Source: a virus
Strand: one strand, 5' to 3'
Virus record (IMG/VR): IMGVR_UViG_3300037343_000301
Coordinates: 1 to 41,191 of that record
Length of the DNA stretch: 41,191 nucleotides
Under the pieces are notes generated by a model. It made no database searches and was not told where the DNA came from. It saw only the letters and a list, made by a program, of their open reading frames with translations. This document shows, in pieces, positions 14,672 to 35,260 of this stretch. The translations under genes and the position numbers were made by a program. Every line of letters starts with the position of its first letter. Position 1 is the stretch's first letter.

Positions 14672-15394
14672 GTGTATATAGAGATCAATAGATGGATAGC
14701 AGAAGGTTGTAAGTGGGATGCTGGTACAGAACTATACAGAAAGTACGGGACTAACAGTCTACTCCTGAAGCTATGCGGTGGGAGTACCAATAGTTACTCT
14801 AGGGAAAAATTAATAACACAACTCACAGCTATGGCAGAGCTAGATAAGCCAGTGCAGGAGAGTAAAGATGTGGCATACCCCATTATTTCTGCAAGCAAGC
14901 CTAAGCCTAAGATATGGGAAAAGAAAACGGGTGTAAAAGATTACTACTCCCTTCCTGATCAGTTGAAAATGAAGAGAGATGAAATAAGCTTGATGTTTAA
15001 GGAAGTAATAAGATGGCGTGCAGAGGTTCACAAGCTCATAGGCACCAGTGATAAGAAAATGATAACACTAGAGGCTGCGTTTGCTATTATGGATCAAATA
15101 GATGAGCATGGGAATGCGGTGCCATTCTCTTTAACCTATGTTACCTATAATGATAGCACAAAAGAGGGGGGTCAGGTGATTAAGGCTCGGAGTAAAGTAC
15201 GTTTTAAAGAAACTAATATAGCCCGATACTCGGTAGGAGCTAGTAAGATAAAGAAGAATCGTAAAAACCCACACCACTCCGTACACGGCACTATGACTCT
15301 CCAGTGGGTGAATACCTTAGAAATACGTACCGTACACACCTACTTAATTTTCGAAATAAACGACAGACCTGTAAGTATAAGCAATTATGGTTAA
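14672..15394 (+). CDS. Phage protein of unknown function, first of three plus-strand virion genes (240 aa)
   Basis: The annotated start is a GTG at 14672 (then YIEINRWIAEGCKW). The frame is open upstream to base 14612 without ATG, GTG or TTG, and it encodes plausible residues (SDSGLYFAYV), so the true start may be non-canonical or further up. The middle is Lys-rich and helical, and the C-terminus is beta-rich and basic. It overlaps the next gene by 8 bases. The three-gene set is probably head completion related, by position between capsid and portal. The family is not recognised by name. Confidence 0.7.
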   Translation: MYIEINRWIAEGCKWDAGTELYRKYGTNSLLLKLCGGSTNSYSREKLITQLTAMAELDKPVQESKDVAYPIISASKPKPKIWEKKTGVKDYYSLPDQLKMKRDEISLMFKEVIRWRAEVHKLIGTSDKKMITLEAAFAIMDQIDEHGNAVPFSLTYVTYNDSTKEGGQVIKARSKVRFKETNIARYSVGASKIKKNRKNPHHSVHGTMTLQWVNTLEIRTVHTYLIFEINDRPVSISNYG

Positions 15395-15710
15395 AAATAG
15401 CGAACGATTACTAGCCTTAGCACGTAATATAGTGGAGAGCCGTAAAGCTCAGATAGCCATATGGACGGAGATAGATCACTATGAGAATACGGGTGCTCTA
15501 CTGGTGAAGGATGAGAAACATCTAGAACCTGCAGATGCAGACATCACTATGGGAATGGCGGTGCGTATATGCCTCACCTACCCGAGCTGGCTTACTAAGA
15601 ACAAGCGAAAATTGAGCACTATGAAGGATAGCGTGAAAAAGACTGAGCTCAAGCAGCGAGTAGCTAAGCGAGAGACTACACTTAATTACTTAAAAAGCCT
15701 AAAGGAATGA
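15387..15710 (+). CDS. Small basic helical protein, second of three plus-strand virion genes (107 aa)
   Basis: The gene overlaps its neighbours on both sides (8 bases upstream, 4 bases downstream), so translation is coupled. The protein is helical and basic, especially in the last third (KKTELKQRVAKRET). It has no membrane span. It may be a head-completion or assembly factor, inferred from context only. Confidence 0.7.
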   Translation: MVKNSERLLALARNIVESRKAQIAIWTEIDHYENTGALLVKDEKHLEPADADITMGMAVRICLTYPSWLTKNKRKLSTMKDSVKKTELKQRVAKRETTLNYLKSLKE

Positions 15711-16162
15711 CACCAAGACAACGAGAGCTACTGCTACGTATAGAAGAACGTGGCAAAATGGAAGGTTTTGCGAAGAACTTGATAAAGCAATTCGAAAAAA
15801 ACATGGATAAGCTGGATATAGGTGATACAGGTGCGGGTAGACGCTCATTTAGGTCTAAGCTCTTTTTTGATTCAGACAGGCACGTGAGTAAAATACGCAT
15901 ACATCACCTAGACTACCTTACCTATGTAGATATAGGCGTAGGACGTGGCGTGAGTGTATCTGACATAGGAATGCAGCGAATAGGCAGAACGCTACTTGGC
16001 AGAAAAGTGGGAGATCGTAGAGCTAAAAGATGGTACTACAAGAAGATCTACGGACAGACTATAGCACTGGCTGTGTATGTTATGGAGATACGTGGTGACC
16101 ACGCTCGGGTGATGGTAGAGGAGTACTTGGATGAGATAGGTAAGGTTGAGATAGATATTTAG
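15707..16162 (+). CDS. Virion morphogenesis / head-completion-like protein (151 aa)
   Basis: The protein has an N-terminal helix, then a basic beta region with the phrase YVDIGVGRGVSVSD, a strongly basic segment (RKVGDRRAKRWYYKK) and a C-terminal strand. The pattern of a helix followed by a basic domain with a Gly-rich 'YVDIGVGRG' loop resembles HK97 gp10-like or Mu gpG-like morphogenesis proteins that complete the head-tail joint. The assignment is tentative. It ends 50 bases before the convergent 67-residue gene. Confidence 0.6.
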   Translation: MTPRQRELLLRIEERGKMEGFAKNLIKQFEKNMDKLDIGDTGAGRRSFRSKLFFDSDRHVSKIRIHHLDYLTYVDIGVGRGVSVSDIGMQRIGRTLLGRKVGDRRAKRWYYKKIYGQTIALAVYVMEIRGDHARVMVEEYLDEIGKVEIDI

Positions 16163-16212: not shown

Positions 16213-16416
16213 TTACATCATATAATGCACACGATTACTCAGCATCTGGTACTGGTATCCTTGCTCTTTTAGGTAGTCTATTAATACTTCTACTTCTAGG
16301 CTTTCTCCGGTGTTTGCGTATATGAGATCTAGTACGGTATTTATATCCTTAAAATCTACTTCGTGCGGCTCTCGCCCTGCTGGATAGTGTGTAGTGATAA
16401 AATCTTTCCAATTCAT
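16213..16416 (-). CDS. Small acidic protein downstream of a structured RNA (67 aa)
   Basis: I take ATG 16416 (MNWKDFITTHYP) as the start. An ORF continuing upstream would run through a terminator hairpin and a structured RNA. The protein is acidic and helical, without a signal or membrane segment. Its start codon follows the U-tract of a terminator with only one base between them. Expression is therefore likely to need readthrough or antitermination. Function is unknown. Confidence 0.6.
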   Translation of the reverse strand: MNWKDFITTHYPAGREPHEVDFKDINTVLDLIYANTGESLEVEVLIDYLKEQGYQYQMLSNRVHYMM

Positions 16417-16417
16417 T

Positions 16418-16531
16418 AAAAAAGCCCTTTTGGCGTGGGCTACACATCTATGAATAGTATAAAATACCACCGTACGATGAACACGCCGCCAGGGCAGTAT
16501 TTTAATCGTACGGTAATCAAGATGTGTAGCA
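16418..16531 (-). ncRNA. Discrete structured small RNA or attenuator leader (~114 nt)
   Basis: On the minus strand an exact TAAATTTG box (16535-16542) is followed by a segment with three long perfect pairings. The outer stem is GCTACACATCT (16520-16530) with AGATGTGTAGC (16439-16449). An inner stem is ACCGTACGAT (16505-16514) with ATCGTACGGT (16469-16478). TAAAATAC (16497-16504) also matches GTATTTTA (16459-16466), which crosses the inner stem. A terminator hairpin AGCCC/GGGCT with a T6 tract follows at 16418-16441 and shares AGC with the outer stem. GGCGTG in the central loop can pair with CACGCC in the terminator, giving a possible antiterminator. The next start codon is immediately downstream. 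Confidence 0.65.
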
Positions 16532-16534
16532 CTG

Positions 16535-16542
16535 CAAATTTA
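16535..16542 (-). promoter_or_regulatory. Bacteroidota -7 box TAAATTTG
   Basis: This exact TAnnTTTG box lies 4 bases before the first paired base of the structured RNA at 16418-16530. It therefore places the transcription start at the 5' end of the outer stem. A TTTG sits 13 bases upstream, closer than the usual -33 position. Confidence 0.6.
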
Positions 16543-16556
16543 TGAGAATATAGAAC

Positions 16557-16587
16557 AAAAAAAAGCCGCTATAAAGCGGCTTTTTTC
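16557..16587. terminator. Bidirectional intrinsic terminator
   Basis: AAGCCGCT (16563-16570) and AGCGGCTT (16575-16582) form a perfect stem with a 4-base loop, flanked by an A-run on the left and a T-run on the right. It can terminate on either strand. It closes the minus-strand transcript of the head genes at 16610-21450 and insulates the small RNA promoter downstream. Confidence 0.85.
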
Positions 16588-24204: not shown

Positions 24205-26943
24205 ATGGCATTAAGCTGGAACGAAATAAAGGACAGAGCATTAAAATTCTCTAATGAATGGGCTGACGAATCTAAAGAGCGTGCCGAAAAGGATAGTTTT
24301 TGGAATGAATTCTTCAACGTCTTTGGTATATCACGCAGACGAGTGGCCACGTTTGAGGAACCTGTAAAAAAGCTCAGTGGCAATCAAGGCTTTATTGATC
24401 TATTTTGGAAGGGTACGCTGCTTGTAGAGCACAAATCCAAAGGGAGAAGTTTAGATAAAGCCTACGAACAGGCTAAGGATTATTTCCCTGGACTAAAAGA
24501 ACACGAACTCCCTAAATACATACTTGTTTCAGATTTCGATAAGATAAAACTCTTTGACTTGGACGAGGGTACTGATCACGTATTCCCTGTATCTGAACTT
24601 TACAAAAATGTAAAGCTATTTGGTTTCATAGCTGGATACCAAAAGCGTACCTTCAAAGAAGAGGACCCTGTAAATATAAAAGCTGCTGAGCTTATGGGTG
24701 ATCTGCACGACCAGCTAGAAGATTTCGGCTATGAAGGGCATCACTTAGAAGTATACTTAGTCCGTTTGCTTTTTATCCTCTTTGCAGATGATACCAGTAT
24801 TTTCGAAAAGGATACATTTAAAGAGTACGTAGAGCAAAAAACCAATGAAGATGGTAGTAACCTAGGAGCACTTATGGCTCAGTTTTTTCAGGTACTGAAT
24901 ACCTCACCCGAAAAACGCCAAAAAAATCTAGACGAACACCTCAGTCAGTTTCCATATGTGAATGGTAAACTTTTTGAGGAGATGCTGCCTATAGCCTCTT
25001 TTAATTCTGATATGCGTAGCATAGTACTAGAGGCATCTGCACTGGACTGGGGCAAAATATCTCCTGCTATATTTGGTTCGCTCTTTCAGAGTGTGATGAA
25101 TCCAGAAGAACGACGTAACCTGGGGGCACACTATACCTCAGAGAAAAATATCTTTAAACTCATAAAGCCACTATTCCTTGACGAGCTGCATACAGAGTTT
25201 GAAAAAGTAAAAGGCAATACAAAAAAGCTACGTGAGTTTCACAAAAAACTATCTACACTAAAGTTCCTAGATCCAGCTTGTGGTAGTGGAAATTTTCTGA
25301 TCATTACTTACCGCGAGCTACGCTTATTGGAAATTGATATTCTTAGGATTTTACAGAAAAGGCAACAAACTGCTGACTTAGGCAGTATACTGTGGCTAGA
25401 TGTAGACCAGTTTTATGGAATAGAGTATGATGAGTTTGCTTCTAAAATAGCAGAAGTAGCTATGTGGCTTATAGACCATCAGATGAATATGCTTGTGAGT
25501 GAAGAGTTTGGTCAATACTTTGCCAGACTACCGCTTAAAAAAGCCGCCAAAATAATAAATGGTAATTCGCTACGGTTAGACTGGGAAGAGGTAGTGCCCA
25601 AGACTGAACTGAGTTATATAATTGGGAATCCACCGTTTATTGGTGCTGCAATGAAAAGCCAAATACAAATTGAAGACATGAGTTTAGTTTTTGATAGTAA
25701 AATTCAATATGGAAAACTCGATTATGTAGCCGCTTGGTACTACCTAGCCGCTCAATATATAAAGGATTCAGATGTCTCGGCAGCTTTTGTATCTACCAAT
25801 TCTGTGGTTCAAGGTGAACAAGTTTCTATTCTATGGAACGAAATATTAACCAACTATAAATTGACAATAAATTTTGCTCATAGAACTTTTAACTGGAAGA
25901 ATGACGCAAAAGGGAAAGCGGCAGTTCACTGTGTTATAGTTGGGTTTTCGAAAATTAGTAAAGAAAAAAAACTATATGACTACTTAGATATTAATGGTGA
26001 ACCAGATGAGATGATTGTTAAAAACATCAATCCATATCTAGTTAATGGTCAAAACATCTTTATAGATAAGACAAGGGAACCTATATGCAACACTCCTAAG
26101 ATGATAAGAGGCAATATTCCTTATGACGATGGAAACTTATTATTATCACTTGATGAAAGGGAAGAGTTTATCAGCAACAACCCTGAGCTCTCACATCTTG
26201 TAAGGAGATATGGAGGGGCTTATGAGATGCTGAATGAAAAATGGAGATACTGTCTTTGGTTGAATGGTATAAGTCCAAATGTTATAAGAAACTCTCAATT
26301 TATAAAAGATAGAATTTATAAATGTAAAATATTCAGAGAAAATGCAAAATCAAAATCTGTTCAGTCTAAGGCAACTACACCGTCATTGTTTGGAGATGTC
26401 AGGCAACCAAAGAGTGACTACCTGTTAATTCCAAGAGTCTCGTCGCATAGAAGGTACTATCTCCCTATTGGCTACATTTCAACAGAAACTATAATAGCAG
26501 ACAGTGCATATGGTCTACCAAATGCGACAAAATTCGAATTTGGAATTTTACAATCAAGTATGCATAATTCTTGGATAAGAACTGTTGCAGGGAAACTAAA
26601 AAGTGACTACAGATATTCAAACAACTTAGTCTACAACAACTACCCTTGGCCCAAAGACCCCAGTGATAAAAACATAAAAAAAGTAGAGGATAAAGCCCAA
26701 AAAGTGCTTGATGTACGGGCCGAGTATCCAGATAGTAGCTTAGCAGATATATATGACCCTCTCACTATGCCACCTAAGCTAGTGAAAGCACATCAGGAAC
26801 TAGATAAGGCTGTGGACCTATGCTATAGACCGCAGGCATTTGGTTCTGAAGCTGTGCGTATAGAGTATCTTTTTGACTTATATAATCAGTACACTGCCCC
26901 GTTATTTAACGTAAAGAAAATAAAGAAAAAAGGCAGTGCGTAA
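24205..26943 (+). CDS. Type IIL (MmeI-like) restriction-modification enzyme (912 aa)
   Basis: This is a single-chain restriction endonuclease and adenine methyltransferase. An N-terminal PD-(D/E)XK nuclease is visible with Asp65, Glu75 and Lys77 (GFIDLF then VEHKSKG), the same spacing as MmeI. A helical connector follows, then methyltransferase motifs: GAHYTS at 307-312, DPACGSGNF at 356-364 and NPPF at 475-478. The region from about 620 on carries the target recognition domain and C-terminal helices. The length of 912 fits MmeI (about 919). All key residues are present, so it should be active. It would methylate the phage and host DNA and cut unmodified incoming DNA. No separate methylase or specificity gene is needed. 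Confidence 0.92.
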   Translation: MALSWNEIKDRALKFSNEWADESKERAEKDSFWNEFFNVFGISRRRVATFEEPVKKLSGNQGFIDLFWKGTLLVEHKSKGRSLDKAYEQAKDYFPGLKEHELPKYILVSDFDKIKLFDLDEGTDHVFPVSELYKNVKLFGFIAGYQKRTFKEEDPVNIKAAELMGDLHDQLEDFGYEGHHLEVYLVRLLFILFADDTSIFEKDTFKEYVEQKTNEDGSNLGALMAQFFQVLNTSPEKRQKNLDEHLSQFPYVNGKLFEEMLPIASFNSDMRSIVLEASALDWGKISPAIFGSLFQSVMNPEERRNLGAHYTSEKNIFKLIKPLFLDELHTEFEKVKGNTKKLREFHKKLSTLKFLDPACGSGNFLIITYRELRLLEIDILRILQKRQQTADLGSILWLDVDQFYGIEYDEFASKIAEVAMWLIDHQMNMLVSEEFGQYFARLPLKKAAKIINGNSLRLDWEEVVPKTELSYIIGNPPFIGAAMKSQIQIEDMSLVFDSKIQYGKLDYVAAWYYLAAQYIKDSDVSAAFVSTNSVVQGEQVSILWNEILTNYKLTINFAHRTFNWKNDAKGKAAVHCVIVGFSKISKEKKLYDYLDINGEPDEMIVKNINPYLVNGQNIFIDKTREPICNTPKMIRGNIPYDDGNLLLSLDEREEFISNNPELSHLVRRYGGAYEMLNEKWRYCLWLNGISPNVIRNSQFIKDRIYKCKIFRENAKSKSVQSKATTPSLFGDVRQPKSDYLLIPRVSSHRRYYLPIGYISTETIIADSAYGLPNATKFEFGILQSSMHNSWIRTVAGKLKSDYRYSNNLVYNNYPWPKDPSDKNIKKVEDKAQKVLDVRAEYPDSSLADIYDPLTMPPKLVKAHQELDKAVDLCYRPQAFGSEAVRIEYLFDLYNQYTAPLFNVKKIKKKGSA

Positions 26944-33878: not shown

Positions 33879-34080
33879 GCGACACTTAGCGACAGTAAAT
33901 GAGAAATTATGAAACTTCATTACATCCTTTAGCGTCACTAGATCTAGTCATATCAGGAGGCCCGTTATTCGATGTTAGTTCAAGTCCCGTCCCGAGTACA
34001 ACTGGGAGACGTAGCAGTCGCAACGTCTCCCTTCTTTTTAATCAAAATCACGACTCGTCAGCGACAGTAAAAGCGACAGT
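33878..34080. other. attP: tRNA 3' end core flanked by paired integrase arm sites
   Basis: TTCAAGT-CCCGT-CCCGAGT-A (33979-33998) is a tRNA T-loop, T-stem and acceptor 3' strand. No complementary 5' half lies upstream, so it is a partial tRNA, as in attP sites. AGCGACACT and AGCGACAGT occur at 33878-33886 and 33888-33896. Two more AGCGACAGT copies occur at 34060-34068 and 34072-34080. A variant AGCGTCACT lies at 33931-33939. Pairs of direct repeats on both sides of a core are the classic arm-type integrase sites. The tRNA may be a Leu type, but this is uncertain. Confidence 0.78.
34004..34039 (+). terminator. tRNA terminator carried inside attP
   Basis: GGGAGACGT (34004-34012) pairs with ACGTCTCCC (34023-34031), and TTCTTTTT follows. 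It sits 5 bases after the tRNA 3' end. After integration it would replace the host terminator and stop tRNA transcription before int. Confidence 0.8.
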
Positions 34081-34081
34081 C

Positions 34082-35260
34082 ATGAACAGCAAAAAAACCT
34101 TTAAGCCAACTCGATTGGTTATTCCTGCAGAATCATCAAAAGACCAAAGATGGTTTTTAAAAGTATACGCTATTGACCACTATAGTGGAAAACTTAGATT
34201 AAAGAAGTACTACAAAATTCTAGGAAACACAGTTTCCGAAAAAAAAAGACACGCAAAATCACTGATCAGCGAAATTGATCAAGCTTTAATAAGTGGAGCT
34301 GTCTTTAATAAGCCTGTTTCTATTTCTACGGATGTGATTACTCTAACTCTAAATGATATAGTCAATCACTACATAGCCAGTCAGTCTCATACACGCAGTG
34401 CCCTTAAACGTTTACCTTCGTACATTAAGCACTATCGAGACTTTATACTAAAGAATAAGCTAGGTCTGAAGCCAGCTGAGTCAATAACTACGTCTCACGG
34501 ATTACTATTTGATACATTCCTAAAATCAAAAGGTAATCTGTCCAATAGATCGATAAACAACTATCGCTCATATGCTAAATCTATATGGCTTCGAGCTATC
34601 TCTGATTTTGAAGATATTCCTCTACGTAATCCATTTAGAAAAGTAAGAAAACTTAAGACGGACCAGGGGAGGAATGTTGCCTATTTACCCAAGCAAGTGG
34701 CACAACTAAAACAGCAACATCTAAGGTTCCCAGACTTGTCATTCCTTGCACTCTTCATGTACTACTCTTTATGCAGGACTAATGAGATTGCTTTCCTGCA
34801 GGTTAAACACATAGGTCTATATGGACCAAATCAAATATACATCCAGTCAGACACAAGCAAAAATTCGTACGAGAGGCACGTCCAAATTCCTCCTCCGCTA
34901 GAGTCTTTGTTACAGAAACATAAAATAAGAGAGTATCCACCAGACTATTACATCTTTAGTTCTAATAAAAGTCGCGGTGGACCTTACAAGAAAATCGAGC
35001 CACAGCCTCACAGGTATAGCACATCTAGCCTTGGAGAGAAGTACCGATTGTATATTTTAAATCCATTAGAGTTGAATCGAGACTACACTCTCTACTCTTG
35101 GAAACATACCGGAGTGATCAATGCTCATAACGCGGGAGTATCAGATGCGGACATAATGCAACAAACAGGTCATCGAAGCTACGAGAGCTTCTCTACTTAC
35201 ATGAAATCTTTAGGCCTATTCGCCCAGGGGCAATATGCTGCCAAAATACCTGAGATCTAA
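34082..35260 (+). CDS. int: Tyrosine integrase (392 aa)
   Basis: This enzyme catalyses attP/attB recombination. I start it at ATG 34082. The frame is open back to an ATG at 33899, but those codons are the attP arm sites, tRNA end and terminator. From 34082 the product has an N-terminal arm-binding region, a SAM-like core-binding domain (about 85-175) and the catalytic domain. In this numbering the catalytic set is Arg232 (SLCRTNEI), Lys260 (TSKN), the YSWKHT box at 338-343, His364 (TGHRS) and Tyr373 (STYMKS). The second Arg position is Lys341 and the usual His is Tyr338, a variant I regard as typical of some Bacteroidota integrases. It converges with the terminase gene. Confidence 0.9.
   Translation: MNSKKTFKPTRLVIPAESSKDQRWFLKVYAIDHYSGKLRLKKYYKILGNTVSEKKRHAKSLISEIDQALISGAVFNKPVSISTDVITLTLNDIVNHYIASQSHTRSALKRLPSYIKHYRDFILKNKLGLKPAESITTSHGLLFDTFLKSKGNLSNRSINNYRSYAKSIWLRAISDFEDIPLRNPFRKVRKLKTDQGRNVAYLPKQVAQLKQQHLRFPDLSFLALFMYYSLCRTNEIAFLQVKHIGLYGPNQIYIQSDTSKNSYERHVQIPPPLESLLQKHKIREYPPDYYIFSSNKSRGGPYKKIEPQPHRYSTSSLGEKYRLYILNPLELNRDYTLYSWKHTGVINAHNAGVSDADIMQQTGHRSYESFSTYMKSLGLFAQGQYAAKIPEI

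Follow-up and report, generated by a model that had tools for sequence, protein, structure and literature searches.

Between the head genes and a gene for a 67-residue protein (p67) of a phage of Bacteroidota lies a strongly structured stretch of minus-strand sequence, with a promoter of its own and a U tract. The question it raises is whether it specifies a stand-alone small RNA or a regulatory leader of the following gene, acting as an attenuator or a riboswitch-like element; both possibilities had been left standing by a first-pass annotation. The DNA analysed (the window) is a 41,191-base IMG/VR virus record from a temperate tailed phage, whose gene set comprises an integrase, a primase, an MmeI-like restriction-modification protein, a ClpP-type head protease, a portal and a terminase, the last two assigned by similarity. 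Its nearest relatives are distant (portal identity of at most 36%, terminase and capsid about 30%), and the rarity of Shine-Dalgarno motifs, found in 4 of 49 genes, is consistent with the host group. To our knowledge, little has been written on small RNAs in the phages of this bacterial group.

The predicted RNA and its 3' end

A strong terminator (Table 1) lies between the head-gene operon upstream and the RNA unit, and insulates the latter. In Flavobacterium psychrophilum the sigma-A box occupies positions -12 to -5 (PMC9723704), and on this spacing the promoter box of the locus places the predicted +1 at G16530, the very base with which the outer stem begins. The earlier proposal that the start is set at the first stem base is thus borne out, its position 16531 being off by one. 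No clear -33 box is seen at this promoter, and TAnnTTTG by itself is not enriched in the contig (27 found, 37 expected).

The outer stem, a 10-bp helix (S1) and an 8-bp crossing helix (S2) are all present on the minus strand where they had been placed at first reading. The RNA folds with -44.5 kcal/mol (z = -6.5; 0 of 200 shuffles equally stable), and positions 16421-16530(-) have the largest stability excess among 1644 windows covering both strands of the 41-kb contig. The plus strand of the locus folds nearly as stably, as expected for any inverted repeat; the promoter, the U tract and the loop-tail pairing described below are all on the minus strand. The core of S1 is palindromic (CGTACG), which also makes S1 a near direct repeat. 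The crossing helix exceeds chance given the loops (p 0.001-0.006), but the predicted ensemble gives it zero probability, and it is 6.3 kcal/mol less stable than the best fold. Since the linkers at the junction shared by S1 and S2 are of 0 and 1 nt, the two helices are mutually exclusive, and the doubt already voiced about a simultaneous crossing pseudoknot was sound.

Table 1. Positions of the elements of the locus and of other landmarks in the window
Feature	Position	Strand	Sequence	Remarks
-7 promoter box	16535..16542	minus	TAAATTTG	
Predicted small RNA or leader	16418..16530	minus		about 113 nt; from folding, window rank and architecture search
Outer stem, 5' strand	16520..16530	minus	GCUACACAUCU	11 bp, perfect; pair probabilities 0.92-1.0
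Outer stem, 3' strand	16439..16449	minus	AGAUGUGUAGC	from inverted repeat and fold prediction
S1, 5' strand	16505..16514	minus	ACCGUACGAU	10-bp helix
S1, 3' strand	16469..16478	minus	AUCGUACGGU	10-bp helix
S2 crossing helix, 5' strand	16497..16504	minus	UAAAAUAC	8 bp; exclusive with S1
S2 crossing helix, 3' strand	16460..16467	minus	GUAUUUUA	8 bp
Apical-loop strand Ta	16482..16495	minus	GCCCUGGCGGCGUG	pairs with Tb
Tail strand Tb	16424..16437	minus	CACGCCAAAAGGGC	directly 5' of U tract
Local terminator hairpin	16423..16441	minus	AGCCC-(9)-GGGCU	alternative to Ta-Tb; -7.2 kcal/mol alone
U6 tract	16418..16423	minus		followed by A16417 and ATG 16416-16414
p67, 67-aa gene	16213..16416	minus		codon signal
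Bidirectional terminator	16558..16587	both		strong, perfect; between upstream head-gene operon and RNA
Integrase	33899-35260			not near the RNA locus

At the 3' end, two alternative structures are predicted for the sequence before the U tract. The first is the pairing of the apical-loop strand Ta with the tail strand Tb, a helix of 11 bp made up of GCCCU/AGGGC and GGCGUG/CACGCC (GGCGUG at 16487-16482 and CACGCC at 16437-16432, minus strand), interrupted by a 3x3 loop and abutting U6. The duplex energy of -21.9 kcal/mol exceeds chance whether the loop (p 0.0005) or the tail (p 0.008) is shuffled. The first-pass annotation had proposed the GGCGTG/CACGCC pairing only, which by itself is not significant (p 0.06-0.22); the proposal holds when the adjoining GCCCU/AGGGC is included. 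Tb starts 1 nt past the outer stem, and because of this short linker (11-16 nt in the class A RNAs described below) the full Ta-Tb helix is incompatible with S1 plus the outer stem; only its 5-bp GCCCU/AGGGC part, which leaves a 10-nt linker, could be compatible with them.

The second structure is a weak local terminator hairpin of 5 bp with a 9-nt loop. As had been noted, the outer stem shares bases with the terminator, the overlap with this hairpin amounting to 3 nt, and RNAfold favours the outer stem, the local terminator being 3.9 kcal/mol above the best fold. The U tract does end one base before the start codon of p67, again in agreement with the first reading.

The p67 frame has a coding signal of +0.36 bits per codon, which ends at ATG16416, the same frame upstream giving -0.25; judged by codon usage, p67 is coding and the RNA stretch non-coding. 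On the same grounds, we discarded the idea that p67 begins further upstream and runs across the RNA, although the frame is open there. No promoter other than that of the RNA is visible before the p67 coding frame, and the RNA is the sole 5' leader available to the gene. Control of a Shine-Dalgarno motif by the terminator arm was also dropped, given the rarity of that motif in the genes of the contig.

RNAs of the same architecture in related phages

Searches for sequence relatives of the window RNA returned only chance matches, whether by blastn, by an 18-nt exact loop pattern or by a covariance model derived from its sequence alone (R1) and run on loci totalling 2.4 Mb, on 50 genomes or records and on another 395 genomes. 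Other candidates were rejected as well: a match in locus L240 is an ordinary terminator, and the genome pattern matches L374-L378 are due to chance, having neither promoter nor tail partner. The Rfam search that had been suggested (Rfam 15) matched no family at either gathering or permissive thresholds.

The architecture, in turn, does recur. A first descriptor, requiring a stem that begins at the +1 of TAnnTTTG and a U tract after it, gave many matches in which the apical loop pairs with the strand immediately preceding the U tract, and two groups emerged, here called class A and class B. A stricter architecture was then sought in loci picked solely by portal or capsid similarity: a first stem anchored to the promoter, a second one, and a loop pairing with the segment next to the U tract on its 5' side. 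It was matched 8 times among 2681 promoters, by four class A RNAs, the window RNA (ranked 4th) and loci L124, L057 and L016, against 0, 0, 1, 1, 0, 0, 0 and 0 matches in eight shifted controls, one of the control matches lying in L123, a locus with a true match. Class A and the window were already known when the thresholds were fixed, so that the window's own match is not independent evidence; the contrast between the eight matches and the shifted controls is.

Class A is a family of phage RNAs with 25 aligned members (among them those of the IMG/VR loci L097, L108, L123, L252 and L335), laid out as two stems of about 11 bp, a loop AGAAGRC..GYCCUCC and a tail GUYGGAGGRC-U6. A pattern scan of IMG/VR gave at least 24 distinct members, 23 of which, among the matches listed, have a correctly placed promoter. 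In the alignment, all cells of the loop-tail helix (100%) are paired and 5 of its 10 pairs show two-sided changes; the whole structure is 93.5% paired, as against 84.3% when shuffled and 40-48% when slid, being better than all 500 shuffles and every slid version. On this alignment, the loop-tail pseudoknot of class A covaries strongly. No Rfam family corresponds to it, and blastn of three class A RNAs against GenBank phages gave no match; it is a covariation-supported RNA family absent from Rfam and present in many uncultured phages. Moreover, the helix preceding the U tract is in this class a pseudoknot, which raises the question of whether a long-range pseudoknot can drive intrinsic termination.

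The gene past the class A terminator is convergent with the RNA; as it faces the opposite way, these RNAs are taken to stand alone. On their other side, they are divergent from phage DNA-modification genes (L260, L272, L278, L297, L344, L126 and others), the neighbours encoding D12, C5 and N6/N4 methyltransferases, Mom and a thymidylate-synthase-like protein. This frequent link with DNA methylation, Mom and thymidylate-synthase-like genes points to a control of phage DNA modification.

With class A, the window RNA has in common a TAnnTTTG box that sets the +1 at the foot of the outer stem, a length of about 11 bp for both the outer stem and S1, some 90 nt outer-to-outer, an apical loop that pairs with the strand directly 5' of the U tract and, in many loci, a small-protein gene as neighbour. 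It differs in lacking the conserved loop motif, in the linker between the outer stem and Tb (11-16 nt in class A; 1 nt for the full Tb and 10 nt for the last 5 bp in the window) and in the interruption of the loop-tail helix, which in class A is contiguous and of 10-12 bp; nor is it convergent with the next gene or divergent from DNA-modification genes. A covariance model of class A (R2) does not match the window RNA at E <= 1; the genome search with R2, in which scoring reached 9 of up to 2616 candidates in each genome, carries no weight. As there is neither a homologue in the sequences searched nor an R2 match, membership of class A could be claimed on architecture only: the layout is shared and the sequence is not, and homology is not implied.

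Class B (L010, L234, L118, L175, L064, L085, L051 and others) combines a promoter-anchored outer stem, a long first loop and loop-tail pairing with a small gene that is co-directional. Of 14 members, 11 have a copy of the RNA 5' end at or near the start of the next gene, with which the 3' strand of the outer stem could pair over 7-16 nt, one of these matches (L209) not being significant singly (p 0.13). The copies mostly begin at, or at most 2 bases from, the G of the ATG. The strand is thus antisense to the start of the next gene over up to 16 nt, often more than the length of the stem. The window RNA resembles class B in its promoter-anchored outer stem, in the pairing of its loop with the strand 5' of the U tract and in the co-directional small gene downstream, but its copy of the 5' end is limited to 7 nt inside the ORF (p 0.06); membership of class B by way of CTACACA in p67 (p 0.03-0.06) was not accepted.

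Tentatively, and with less than even confidence, a single type of RNA may be widespread in Bacteroidota phages, with class A, class B and the window RNA as its variants; its transcription would be ended by a loop-to-tail pseudoknot in place of a local hairpin, and in class B it would also be antisense to the start region of the next gene. If this were true, termination and RNA release would hinge on how the entire molecule folds.

The small genes offer a further link. No match for p67 was found in PHROGs, in Pfam at the cut-off, in the PDB or by fold search, nor any homologue by pattern and tblastn; its sole genome match, inside a 986-aa frame, was rejected, and it resembles no enzyme, transporter or toxin. 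A family of small proteins (80-120 aa, FxPsxPxxxxVKxxT..LxELGY) is found in phages related to that of the window, its gene lying at most 1.5 kb from the RNA in 15 of the 16 loci that hold both (3.0 expected). A profile of 39 of these proteins, built without p67, matches residues 5-67 of p67 (single-target E 6e-5, hhalign P 0.0003), p67 reaching only E 0.1-2.5 when the same profile is used in a whole-ORF search. On this sequence likeness, p67 is probably a diverged member of the small-protein family accompanying these RNAs.

Small RNA, leader or DNA site

The best explanation, to which we give slightly better than even credence, is a small RNA of the phage, terminated through loop-tail pairing, past which some transcription would leak into p67. 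It is supported by the sequence, the folding energetics, the recurrence of the architecture, the covariation of the related family and the coding signal of the ORF, and from these we infer transcription, termination, read-through and any function in trans. Polymerase would start at G16530 from a housekeeping-type promoter, and the two-tier hairpin of outer stem and S1 would form behind it, burying the 5' end of the RNA. As the tail emerged, it would be paired by the loop strand Ta or by the weak local arm, and polymerase would stop in U6, releasing an RNA expected to be stable, with its 5' end in a stem and its 3' end structured. Termination would be partial, so that some read-through transcripts would express p67. 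Small RNAs of phages and prophages, such as the OOP RNA of lambda, are short, have their own promoter and an intrinsic terminator, and lie between phage genes; ordinarily they terminate in a local hairpin. The window RNA is like them in all but this last respect, its predicted ending being of the loop-tail type, and bears no sequence relation to them.

The main rival, which we consider rather unlikely, is a cis-acting attenuator: the RNA would be the 5' leader of p67, and the extent of read-through would be set, in response to a protein or to folding kinetics, by the choice between helices that exclude each other (the outer stem or the local terminator; S1 or one of S2 and Ta-Tb). Its attraction lies in the U tract placed one base from ATG16416, in a coding frame with no other promoter, in the 3 nt common to the outer stem and the local terminator and in the excess of S2 over chance; furthermore, class B RNAs directly precede a co-directional small gene. 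Like the transcription attenuators surveyed in PMC2965389 and riboswitch leaders, the locus combines promoter, exclusive helices, terminator and ORF, but it has no known sensor, ligand or regulated pathway. The energetics of S2 speak against this rival, as do the lack of a conserved sensor and the convergent gene of class A, which implies that the architecture needs no downstream gene. Class A thus argues for a stand-alone RNA, and the co-directional genes of the window and class B may leave room for attenuation.

A chance fold, or an ordinary hairpin-plus-terminator devoid of function, is improbable: it would account for the lack of a homologue of the exact window RNA, but not for the first rank among the windows of the contig, the exact anchoring to the promoter or the recurrence of the architecture in related phages. 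Still less probable is a site that acts as DNA, be it in recombination, as an operator or in replication, the RNA helices being a misreading of its inverted repeats. The perfect repeats and the palindromic, nearly directly repeated S1 would suit such a site; the integrase, however, is not nearby, the motifs do not recur in the rest of the contig, the U tract and the spacing of the promoter agree with an RNA made from one strand, and relatives alter bases yet keep the pairing. Finally, a metabolite riboswitch controlling the 67-aa gene, as a form of the riboswitch-like control envisaged at first, is hardly credible, since the structured leader, exclusive helices and terminator before an ORF are accompanied by no Rfam match, conserved aptamer or sequence homologue, nor by any metabolic gene, p67 being unlike any enzyme or transporter. 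In type III toxin-antitoxin systems (ToxIN), an RNA made of tandem repeats precedes the gene of a nuclease toxin; this type was rejected too, the RNA having no tandem repeats and p67 no toxin match.

Other features of the window deserve mention. Related phages carry homologues of the 240-aa and 151-aa genes at 14672-16162 (+) on the strand of the portal, here the opposite one, as if this gene cassette had been inverted relative to them. The MmeI-like protein (24205-26943, +) is a phage-borne combined restriction-modification protein in which every MmeI domain is present. A second promoter-hairpin-terminator unit lies at 6766-6675 (-), with TATCTTTG, a hairpin and a strong terminator AGAGAGCCGUGG..CCACGGCUUUU; it has a z of -4.7 and ranks second among the structured loci of the contig. 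On its 3' side come another TATTTTTG and an ORF of 36 aa, whose product probably has a membrane helix.
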